From Bradyrhizobium genosp. L (GTDB lineage: Bacteria; Pseudomonadota; Alphaproteobacteria; Rhizobiales; Xanthobacteraceae), in contig NZ_CP061378.1 in the NCBI RefSeq assembly GCF_015624485.1, positions 4,588,001 to 4,652,000 of the forward strand: 64,000 nucleotides of DNA. The letters run 5' to 3'. Both the position numbers and the translations under genes were made by a program. The notes under the pieces were generated by a model that made no database searches, was not told the DNA's origin, and saw only the letters and a list, made by a program, of their open reading frames with translations. Below, one piece after another: positions 27,110 through 30,514 of this stretch; within the stretch, counting starts at the first letter, position 1, and the number at the start of each line of letters is the position of its first letter.

Positions 27110-27967
27110 CTAGCGTTTAGCTCGCTTTTTCGTGAGCTTTTTTGCCACCTTTTTGGTGGCTTTTGCCCCCTTCCGGGCACTGGCGCCGCGAGCAGCCTTC
27201 TTGGCCGGCTTTTTTGCGACTTTGGCCTTGGAAGCCGCTTTGGCGGCCTTGCGGGCCGGGCTGGCGGCCTTTTTGGCCACCTTTGCTGGCTTCTTGGCCG
27301 GCTTCCCGGCAACCTTGGCGGTCTTCCTGGCGCCCTTCGAGGCTTTTTTGGCGGGTTTGACCTGCTCTTCCTCTCCCAGCGCGCCGAGCGCGCCCAGGAT
27401 CCGGTTGATCTCGCGGGTGACGTGCTCGATGGTCATCATGCCATCGACGGTCAGAAGCTTGCGCCGCTCGGAGTAATAGTGAATCAGCGGCTCCGTCAGC
27501 GAGCGGTACTGCGCTAGGCGCTTGGTCAGGACCTCCGGCGTATCGTCGAGGCGCACGTCCTCGCCGCGCGCCCGGGTCTCCTCGGCGCGCTTCTCGACGC
27601 GCGCGAGCAGCGCGCTCTCGTTGACGCGGAGCTCGACGACGGCATCGAGCTTGAGGTGCTTCTTCCGCAGCAGTTCGTCCAGGGCTTCGGCTTGCGGCAC
27701 CGTGCGCGGGAAGCCGTCGAGGATGAAGCCCTTTTTGGCATCGGGCTCCTCGATGCGGTCGGCGATGATTCCGACCACGACCTCGTCGGGGACCAGGCCG
27801 CCATTGGCCATGATCTCCTTGGCCTGCAGGCCGATCGGGGTGCCTGCGGCGACGGCCGCGCGCAGCATCTCACCGGTCGAGAGCTGGACGATGCCGTGCT
27901 TGTGGACCAGCCGCTGCGCCTGGGTGCCCTTGCCCGAGCCCGGCGGGCCGAGAAGAATCAGTCTCAT
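27110..27967 (-). CDS. adk: Adenylate kinase with Lys/Ala-rich C-terminal tail
   Basis: The first 200 or so residues are a normal short-LID adenylate kinase (ATP + AMP to 2 ADP): P-loop GPPGSGKGT (7-15), AMP site [32 protein letters not shown] and [18 protein letters not shown]. From residue 204 to 285 follows an 82-residue tail with 29 Lys, 6 Arg and no acidic residue, built of AKK/PAKK repeats like histone H1 or AlgP. Most bacterial Adk proteins lack this. The reading frame is continuous and the stop is TAG at 27110. The start overlaps the stop of the secY paralogue by ATGA. The tail could bind rRNA or DNA, but no function is established. Confidence 0.93.
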
Positions 27968-29166
27968 ATGCGTTCGCCCCCGCGATTGCTGCGCGATAGA
28001 TCGCGCACCTGCTTTTTAAGATCAAGAATAGTGCAAACCACAATCAGCACCGAACCACCACCGATTTTATAGGGCAGCGCCACCCCACCTGCCACCAGCA
28101 GCTCTGGAATCAGCGATACCGCGACGAGGTAGACGGCTCCGACGACGGTCGTCAACGATGCGATGCGATCGAGATGATCGGCGGTCGCCTCGCCCGGCGC
28201 TATGCCCGGTATCGTGCCGCCCTGCGCCTGCAGGGTCTCGGCGGCCTGCTCGGGATCGAGCACGCGGGCGGTGTAGATGAAGGCCAGCACGATGACGATC
28301 ATCGATCCGAGAATGATGTGCAGCGGCTGCGCGAACTGGAGATGCGCATAGGCCGCGGCCAGCCACGGTGTCCGGCCGAACAGATAGGCGCCGAACGAGA
28401 GCGGCAGATAGATCACCCACAGCGCCACTGTCGTCGGGATCAGGAAACCCGCGCTGTTGAGCTTGATCGACAGCACCGAGGCGCGCGGGCCAAGGAGCCG
28501 CTTGCCGACTTGCCGCGGGCCATACTCCACCGGCACGTTGCGCCGTGCGCTCTCGACCAGGACGATCAGACCGATCAGCGCAATCCAGAGCACGCCGTTG
28601 AAGAGCAGGACATTGCCGGATACTGCGCCCTGTCGCAGCAGCTCGAGGGCGGTGGCGATTTCCGACGGCAGCGATACCACGACGCCGACGCTCAGGATGA
28701 GCGCAAGCCCGTTGCCGATGCCGTGACGGGTGATCTGCTCGCTGAGCCAGACCAGGAAGAAGACGCCGCCGACCATCGTTGCGATCGTCGACGCCAGAAA
28801 CCAGGAGCCGGGTTCGGCGACCAGACCTCGAATGCCCTGCAAAGCGGATGCAATGCCGAAGGCCTGGAAGACGGCAAACCCCAGCGTCACGATCAAGGTG
28901 CAGCGGACGATCTTGCGGCGGCCGGCCTCGCCTGAGCGTTCGAGCGCGCCCAGCCTGCCCCACACCACCGAGAGCAGCTGCATGATGATCGCAGCGGAGA
29001 GGTAGGGAACGATCGAGAGTGCGAAGATCGAGACGCGGAACAGCGTGCTCGGCGGCAACACCCCGCTCTGGGTCGAGAGTCCCGCCAGTGGGACATAACA
29101 GCCGAGCCTGAAGATGAGCAGCGCGCCGATCGTGATTGCGATGCGGCGCGCCAGCTCACTCATCAT
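27964..29166 (-). CDS. SecY paralogue, shortened and lacking the plug segment
   Basis: A 400-residue SecY-like protein with the ten-helix layout, directly downstream of the true secY (16-nt gap). It keeps [47 protein letters not shown] and [20 protein letters not shown]. Compared with the neighbour, the stretch from the end of helix 1 to IFAL is 16 residues instead of 32, so the plug region (GGILGMFNMFAGGGIHRM in SecY) is missing. In cytoplasmic loop C5 the IRPG motif is IAPG at residue 323, losing the arginine equal to E. coli R357. The tail is short and lacks the YEGL segment. Translation is coupled to adk by ATGA. It could be a second channel, a regulator or a decaying copy. Confidence 0.88.
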
Positions 29167-29182: not shown

Positions 29183-30514
29183 TCAGCGACGGCGTCCGCG
29201 CAGCTTCGATTTGCGGATCAGGCCTTCATACTGGTGCGCCAGCAGATAGCCCTGCACCTGCGAGACGGTGTCCATGGTCACGCTGACCACGATCAGGAGC
29301 GACGTGCCGCCGAAGTAGAACGGCACCGAAGCGTAGGAGATCAGGATTTCCGGGATCAGACAGACGATCGCGAGATAGATCGCGCCGAGCACCGTGATCC
29401 GCGACAGCACGTAGTCGATATATTCTGCGGTGCGCTCGCCGGGCCGGATGCCCGGGATGAAGCCGCCATGCTTCTTCAGATTGTCCGCGGTCTCGGTCGG
29501 GTTGAACACGATCGCGGTGTAGAAGAACGCGAAGAACACGATCAGCACGAGATAGAGGATCAGGAACAGCGGCCGGCCGTGGCCGAGCTGAGTGGTGATC
29601 CACTGGAACCATTCCGGCCCCTTGCCGGCGTTGAAGTTGGCGACCGTGGTCGGCAGCAGCAGCAGCGACGAGGCGAAGATCGGCGGGATCACGCCCGAGG
29701 TGTTGAGCTTGAGCGGCAGATGCGAGGACTGGCCCTCGAACATCTTGTTGCCGACCTGGCGCTTCGGATACTGGATCAGCAGCCGGCGCTGCGCGCGCTC
29801 CATGAACACGATGAAGGCGATCACGGCGACCGCCATCAGGATGACGATCAGGATCAGGCCGGTCGACATCGCGCCCTGGCGGCCGAGCTCCAGCATGTTG
29901 GCGAGCGCCGACGGCAGCTCGGCGACGATGCCGGACAGGATGATCAGCGAGATGCCGTTGCCGATGCCGCGCGAGGTGATCTGCTCGCCGAGCCACATCA
30001 GGAACATGGTGCCGCCGGTCAGCGTGATCGCGGTCGAGATACGGAAGAACATGCCGGGGTCGCTGACGACGTTGCCGGCGCCTTCGAGGCCGATCGCGAT
30101 GCCGTAGGACTGGAACAGCGCCAGGATCACCGTGAGATAGCGGGTGTACTGGTTCAGCGTCTTGCGGCCCGCCTCGCCTTCCTTCTTCAGCGCCTCGAGC
30201 TGCGGCGACACGGTGGTCAACAGCTGCACGATGATCGATGCCGAGATGTACGGCATGATGTTCAGCGCGAAGATCGCCATGCGGTGGATGCCGCCGCCGG
30301 CGAACATGTTGAACATGCCGAGGATGCCGCCGGACTGGGTGCGGAACACCTGCTCCCAGATGTTGGGGTCGATGCCGGGCAGCGGGATGTAGGTCCCGAG
30401 CCTATAAACAAGCAGCGCACCCAGCGTGAACCAGATGCGCTTCTTCAGTTCGTCGGCCTTCGCCAGCGATCCGAAATTGAGGTTTGCGGCGAGTTGTTCG
30501 GCTGCTGAGACCAT
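29183..30514 (-). CDS. secY: Protein translocase channel subunit SecY
   Basis: A 443-residue SecY, the same length as E. coli, forming the SecYEG membrane channel. It has ten transmembrane helices, a plug segment near residues 61-80 (GGILGMFNMFAGGGIHRM), IFALNIMPYISASIIVQLL, the C4 loop QYPKRQVGNKMFEG and the C5 motif GIRPGERTAEYID with Arg357. The C-terminus HQYEGLIRKSKLRG is intact. This is the working copy. The start at 30514 (MVSAAEQLAANLNFG) is chosen over a frame open to 30589. It lies in the normal spc position after rplO. Confidence 0.97.
   Translation of the reverse strand: MVSAAEQLAANLNFGSLAKADELKKRIWFTLGALLVYRLGTYIPLPGIDPNIWEQVFRTQSGGILGMFNMFAGGGIHRMAIFALNIMPYISASIIVQLLTTVSPQLEALKKEGEAGRKTLNQYTRYLTVILALFQSYGIAIGLEGAGNVVSDPGMFFRISTAITLTGGTMFLMWLGEQITSRGIGNGISLIILSGIVAELPSALANMLELGRQGAMSTGLILIVILMAVAVIAFIVFMERAQRRLLIQYPKRQVGNKMFEGQSSHLPLKLNTSGVIPPIFASSLLLLPTTVANFNAGKGPEWFQWITTQLGHGRPLFLILYLVLIVFFAFFYTAIVFNPTETADNLKKHGGFIPGIRPGERTAEYIDYVLSRITVLGAIYLAIVCLIPEILISYASVPFYFGGTSLLIVVSVTMDTVSQVQGYLLAHQYEGLIRKSKLRGRRR

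Follow-up and report, generated by a model that had tools for sequence, protein, structure and literature searches.

The plug and the arginine at position 357 of the C5 loop are central to the gating of the SecY translocon, and both have been studied by mutation in the papers cited here (given by PMC number, from excerpts). R357 is described as conserved across the three domains of life, and in Escherichia coli the triple change R357E/P358D/G359P lowers the affinity for SecA more than 10-fold and strongly impairs translocation, defects that are partly reversed by the unlocking prlA4 changes (PMC4826270). The single change R357E keeps the plug closed and likely cuts the path from the SecA ATPase to plug opening, while SecA binding is not disrupted (PMC6021171). 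Plug-deletion mutants of E. coli (e.g. delta60-74) are viable and ion-conducting; binding of the ribosome also opens the channel, with a conductance like that of these mutants, and it still opens an F67C/R357E mutant, for which a partial loss of binding is not excluded (PMC3689939). Plug deletion is described as tolerated, and a hypothetical proto-SecY, a SecY-like channel that has neither plug nor gating, has been argued to be a plausible ancestor (PMC8675477). A second SecY alongside the housekeeping one is known from the SecY2 systems, in which SecY2 partners SecA2 and the Asp proteins (PMC5076819). Here we describe a naturally occurring SecY relative, referred to below as the paralogue, which is encoded in the spc operon of Bradyrhizobium genosp. 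L within a 64,000-nucleotide stretch (the window; NZ_CP061378.1, positions 4,588,001 to 4,652,000) of a 7.40 Mb genome held in a single contig. A search of the open-access literature, outside which most subscription papers lie, brought up no description of this paralogue or of any SecY that lacks the plug in nature, and the excerpts of a paper on Sec-related arrest peptides (PMC10987492) hold nothing on a second SecY.

The original prediction, made from the window alone, had placed a 400-residue SecY relative directly downstream of an intact 443-residue secY, with a frame open throughout and coupled to adk, and all of this was found again in the open reading frames (ORFs) and Pfam matches. The frame runs from an ATG start to a TGA stop with no internal stops and begins 16 nt downstream of secY, whereas at its other end the TGA (27964-27966) shares bases with the ATG of adk (27965-27967) to form an ATGA overlap. 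The flanking genes are rplO-secY on one side and adk-rpsM on the other. The paralogue belongs to Pfam family PF00344, as it passes the profile cut-off of 32.2 bits (Table 1; the adjoining SecY scores 392.6 bits) and its predicted model has the SecY fold with ten transmembrane (TM) helices. This model supersedes an earlier AlphaFold2 model built from 10 sequences, which was too weak (predicted local distance difference test, pLDDT, 58.4; predicted template modelling score, pTM, 0.47). A chance frame or a frameshift artefact was ruled out, as the same architecture occurs in 42 genomes.

Canonical alphaproteobacterial SecY, with 42-54% identity, resembles the paralogue in fold, channel core and operon position. 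The paralogue differs from it in lacking the plug, R357, the C-terminal tail and the N-terminal extension, and in an extra residue in TM7 together with the substitutions I278T and S282W (E. coli numbering). As had been predicted, the end of TM1 (...PLAGL / ...PLPGI) is separated from the IFAL motif by 16 residues (S31-S46) in the paralogue and by 32 in SecY. The P43-R74 stretch, which contains the plug, has 13-17 residues in all 116 paralogues of the Bradyrhizobium type as against 30 in all 134 canonical sequences; realignment restored no plug. This 116-sequence set takes in 115 of the 119 public sequences P0004-P0122, at 390-410 residues, and leaves out P0003, a fragment of the window protein. 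Alignment with E. coli SecY also upheld the reading of the C5 loop as IAPG in place of IRPG: R357 of E. coli corresponds to R357 of the window SecY and to A323 of the paralogue. The arginine is absent from all 116 Bradyrhizobium-type paralogues (80 alanine, 27 glutamate, 6 serine, 3 others) and from all nine deeper-branching ones described below, and is present in 134/134 canonical sequences. The C-terminal YEGLIRKSKLRGRRR tail (YEGL) is missing as predicted; so are 18 residues found ahead of TM1 in SecY, on which the prediction was silent.

The lateral-gate segment of TM7 has been reshaped as well. Among the 116 sequences, 115 carry the extra residue where TM7 begins, 113 have T278, 112 the substitution S281P and all W282, and neither the extra residue, T278 nor W282 occurs in any of the 134 canonical sequences. 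Canonical SecY has 258 conserved sites, of which the plug-bearing paralogues retain 135 and the Bradyrhizobium type 102; some have switched to a new fixed residue, e.g. S99W, K106E, R243N and K250A. The C5 loop is changed beyond R357, with R361 lost, K347 nearly so and a net charge of -5, and the C4 loop is still positively charged.

Comparison with deeper-branching relatives (n=9; P0123-P0127, P0131, P0133, P0135 and P0136) indicates the order in which these features were lost. From the range P0123-P0136 we left out P0129 and P0130 as truncated, P0134 as canonical, and P0128 and P0132 as chimeric-looking; in the last two, pieces of SecY are repeated or out of order, probably through assembly errors. 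All nine relatives bear a plug, with a P43-R74 stretch of 28-30 residues, yet none has R357 (6 glutamate, 3 alanine) or YEGL, and all have the short N-terminus and a tryptophan at the S282 position. The extra TM7 residue is found in two of the nine and hence is not tied to plug loss. A further locus, L045, has a plug stretch shortened by 10 residues, S281P and W282, and retains I278. Common to every member examined are thus the absence of R357, of the C-terminal tail and of the N-terminal extension, and the tryptophan at S282, whereas plug loss and I278T are limited to part of the family. Because the deeper-branching paralogues keep the plug without R357, tail or N-terminus, these three were lost first and the plug later, as shown on the sequences examined. 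The prediction of a plug-less protein therefore holds for the window paralogue and for the 116-sequence type and fails as a definition of the family. The plug loss is derived and not ancestral, unlike that of the hypothetical proto-SecY; and unlike the engineered E. coli deletions, which affect the plug only, it is natural, old and joined by the loss of R357 and tail and by other changes of the gate.

The origin of the paralogue was examined in an LG+C20 tree of 40 rows (20 paralogues, one outgroup and 19 SecY picked for spread). The paralogues cluster in a single group (100/100), which together with seven SecY of the same family is split from the other 13 rows (99/96). The bootstrap was not fully settled, one SecY of the family (L064) is placed outside, and the branches of L045 and the outgroup are long. 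By sequence comparison the paralogue is shown to be a divergent duplicate of the adjoining secY, and the tree favours a tandem duplication near the base of the family. A paralogue tree and a secY+adk tree of 39 taxa have 9 of 36 splits in common, five of them strong in both; the main clades are common, and nine conflicting pairs of strong splits lie within them. Recombination within the genus, inside the spc operon, is likely because the two trees conflict. The approximately unbiased (AU) test rejects each tree on the data of the other; the program warns that the replicates are too few to make the AU value reliable.

Within the genus, a paralogue without internal stops was found in 37 of 195 sampled Bradyrhizobium genomes, the window genome included (E <= 1e-130), so that orthologues are not absent from relatives. 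The other full-length matches were canonical SecY at about 1e-84 to 1e-89, with one genome giving only a weaker match (9.3e-46) and four giving none. One genome of the genus (G112, 9.8 Mb) has three SecY-type matches, the best of which (3.4e-85) is at the canonical level. In the family search (391 genomes, query P0001, E <= 1e-92) 24 genomes from 3 of 47 genera hold the paralogue, namely Bradyrhizobium and two other sampled genera. The order search (397 genomes) gave two matches at E <= 1e-60 only in three genomes of the same genus, and the class search (385 genomes, query A1, E <= 1e-139) returned the window's own genome only; the family and class thresholds were set against canonical SecY, and plug-bearing paralogues could escape both. 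Among public proteins, the best 120 of 1185 matches are 64-78% identical, bar one fragment of the window protein. The named relatives among the protein matches are Bradyrhizobium, plus one distant Paenibacillus SecY with 30% identity.

Forty-two loci were read, the window included (L003 was excluded as the same record as L007). The gene order is always secY-paralogue-adk with a paralogue of 398-415 residues, and in two of the loci, L045 and L046, the plug is partly or fully retained. Between secY and the paralogue, 27 loci have an overlap of 4 bases and 15 a gap of 2-17 nt. At the paralogue-adk junction the 4-base overlap occurs in 40 of the 41 loci measured by script and in L030, with L045 at +14. 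Because of these tight or overlapping junctions, translation of the three genes is likely to be coupled.

Genomes without the gene were represented by 72 loci of the genus that have no intact copy (12 from the order search and 60 fetched). In 71 of them secY and adk are separated by 68-688 nt (55 at 61-130 nt, 15 at 131-400 and one at 688), whereas all 15 canonical loci outside the genus have a gap of 0-4 nt (stop codon counted, overlaps taken as 0). Decayed pieces of the paralogue were found in 15 of the 72, fourteen at E <= 1e-6 and the other in B. semiaridum (L133), whose gap was scored as -4 when the script took its remnant for secY. The other 57 show likeness at most to about the last codons, with the inverted repeat described below, or nothing passing. 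Because of the gaps and remnants in gene-less relatives, the paralogue was probably ancestral in Bradyrhizobium and lost repeatedly, although short gaps alone are no proof of ancestral presence. Horizontal arrival as the cause of the patchiness is not favoured, since the gene-less relatives show the gap and in part the remains.

The same gaps and remnants would also be expected if the paralogue were a slowly decaying duplicate of little function, heading for loss in all lineages. Under this explanation the ratio of non-synonymous to synonymous rates (omega, GY+F3X4), 0.217 for the paralogues of 40 Bradyrhizobium loci, would reflect a ten-fold relaxation against the 0.021 of their secY (adk, 0.030, from 39 of the 40 rows and the first 190 codons; the row of L030 was missed by the script, the gene being present), and the low codon adaptation index (CAI) given below fits as well. 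However, the value is far from the 1 of neutral decay, which is ruled out in carriers; the frame is open in 40/40; residues have become newly fixed over deep divergence; and the 34 pairs at synonymous divergence (dS) of 0.05-0.3 already have a median omega of 0.243 (range 0.158-0.404). Where it is kept, the paralogue is under moderate purifying selection, ten times weaker than that on secY. We therefore regard slow decay as improbable, in keeping with the earlier view that this is not an obvious dead gene.

A dedicated SecE, SecG or SecA partner for the paralogue was not found in profile searches of the genome. There is one SecE match, one SecG match and one strong SecA_DEAD match (437.8 bits, in a 968-residue frame); a second SecA_DEAD match, of 25.8 bits (cut-off 24.6) over 67 of 290 positions, falls in a 705-residue frame (G000:C1:3986134-3986334) that is perhaps another helicase. 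With 238.2 bits the paralogue stays below the cut-off of 253.6 of the housekeeping SecY equivalog TIGR00967. Of nine paralogues tested, all five of the plug-less Bradyrhizobium type are below it (215.3-246.4), and the other four, L045 and three that bear the plug, are above it (258.1-320.8). Membership in an accessory SecA2/SecY2 system, which would account for the presence of two SecY proteins, finds some likeness in the weak matches to the SecY2 models TIGR02920 and NF009082 (104.8 and 112.8 bits). These scores are far below the cut-offs (249.6 and 353), a second SecE or SecG is missing, the second SecA_DEAD match is partial, and the tree sets the paralogue beside alphaproteobacterial SecY. 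No asp or glycosyltransferase genes are among the immediate neighbours, the part of the window that was searched for them. Such a membership is thus very improbable, and in its strict form it is refuted by the profile scores and partner searches. The paralogue is a member of the SecY superfamily that is neither a housekeeping SecY by the equivalog cut-off nor a SecY2.

In the account that we put forward, the paralogue would pair with the single SecE of the cell to form a channel of the SecY type, with its opening freed from the R357-plug switch. Loss of R357 in a plug-bearing SecY would have given a channel held shut or poorly openable and uncoupled from SecA; the loss of the plug and the reshaping of TM7 would then have left it permanently unlocked. 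Its use would be co-translational, insertase-like insertion of membrane proteins in parallel to SecY, and not SecA-driven export of secreted proteins. Insertion seems the likeliest use because the positive charge of C4 is kept and C5 is altered. A speculative candidate for filling the gate and sealing the membrane is W250, which is invariant across the paralogues examined. We place the probability of this account, an unlocked channel that shares SecE and inserts proteins co-translationally without SecA, at about 0.4. The stronger version, a naturally ungated translocon that evolved out of R357-plug control (switch first, plug later) into a SecA-independent insertase with ordinary SecE, appears doubtful to us.

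The independence from SecA is something we infer, and in E. coli unlocking partly rescues a mutant of the R357 region (PMC4826270). The paralogue could on that ground be a Prl-like permissive exporter which still uses SecA and SecE, its unlocked state offsetting the missing R357, and which exports proteins with poor signal sequences. prlA4 restores the SecA affinity of R357E/P358D/G359P and part of its activity, and the changed sites of the paralogue fall within TM7 and the plug, two of the three regions (the third being TM10) to which most prlA mutations map (PMC4826270). Against this, the C5 loop is altered well beyond R357, as listed above, and the tail is gone. The presumed prl alleles at I278 and S282 were not confirmed either, as a literature search on the allele names turned up no paper. 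Such an exporter is in our view unlikely.

The paralogue may also conduct nothing and instead tune the translocon, by forming a heterodimer with SecY or by competing for SecE. The tight or overlapping junction with secY and the single SecE that must serve both proteins would suit such a modulator, and R357E is reported to disfavour SecY dimers, so that the dimer geometry could differ (PMC6021171). At the level of the alignment the pore speaks for a working channel. We take the pore ring to be formed by positions 82, 86, 187, 191, 278 and 408, and the limits of the alignment segments are likewise assumed. Five of the six are aliphatic and partly fixed (I408 97%, I191L 93%), the sixth being the threonine at I278, and a non-conducting role is thus rather unlikely.

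Several observations weigh against the channel account. Of the sampled genus genomes 158/195 are without the paralogue, which is dispensable at the genus level and whose role is conditional at best. Its CAI is low, 0.47 against 0.74 for secY, with the reference taken from seven genes for ribosomal proteins in the window; adk (0.52) and a nearby non-ribosomal gene (0.51) are close to it. Some basic residues of C4 are lost (R243, K250), which may weaken ribosome docking. By Foldseek E-value the ribosome-bound E. coli SecY structures (5nco, 5gae) rank above the SecA-engaged ones, and since only the paralogue was modelled, the resemblance of its model to an open state may stem from the modelling. 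Finally, the predictions are not firm, because the reports on R357E (PMC6021171) and on the triple variant (PMC4826270) differ on SecA binding and because a partial loss of ribosome binding is left possible (PMC3689939).

Two further features lie next to or within adk. The C-terminal part of adk (27110-27400) is a long lysine/alanine-rich extension, which is covered by the NCBIfam model NF010381. Just ahead of adk, the last codons of the paralogue contain an inverted repeat followed by a G-run (Table 1). A similar repeat is retained, near-invariant in sequence, in 68 of 71 secY-adk junctions of gene-less relatives, and in the window and L008 its outer pairs are swapped for other pairs. A covariation test gave no support for the hairpin, as each of the five consensus pairs is present in 81-83 of the 83 unique sequences and almost invariant. 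The conservation suggests that the repeat is perhaps a functional RNA or a translation signal for adk.

Table 1. Positions of the paralogue, its altered segments and the adjoining genes in the window.
Feature	Position	Strand	Evidence
SecY paralogue coding sequence, 400 residues, without plug, R357 and tail	27964..29166	-	ORF and translation; Pfam SecY 240.1 bits; ten-TM model, pLDDT 77.4
Codons S31-S46, shortened stretch where SecY has a 32-residue plug-bearing segment	29029..29076	-	alignments
C5 loop IAPG (I322-G325); IRPG with R357 in SecY and E. coli	28192..28203	-	alignment
TM7 lateral-gate segment F241-W250 with one extra residue, I278T and S282W (E. coli numbering)	28417..28446	-	alignment
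Canonical secY, 443 residues from its ATG, spc operon, upstream of the paralogue	29183..30514	-	TIGR00967 434.6 bits (cut-off 253.6)
adk, adenylate kinase, ATGA overlap with the paralogue	27110..27967	-	ORF and profile matches
Inverted repeat GGTG-GCG...CGC-CACC, then a G-run, in the last paralogue codons	27990..28007	-	read from sequence

The paralogue is a natural test of SecY channel gating. Two elements that are central to it have both been removed by nature, in an order that fits the allostery seen in the laboratory, where a change of R357 holds the plug closed and unlocking rescues, and the product is retained under selection in the carrier genomes. Carriers, plug-bearing relatives and gene-less junctions together form a series in which one can ask whether an ungated SecY works, and the same series bears on how the membrane is sealed and on whether channel opening can be separated from coupling to SecA.
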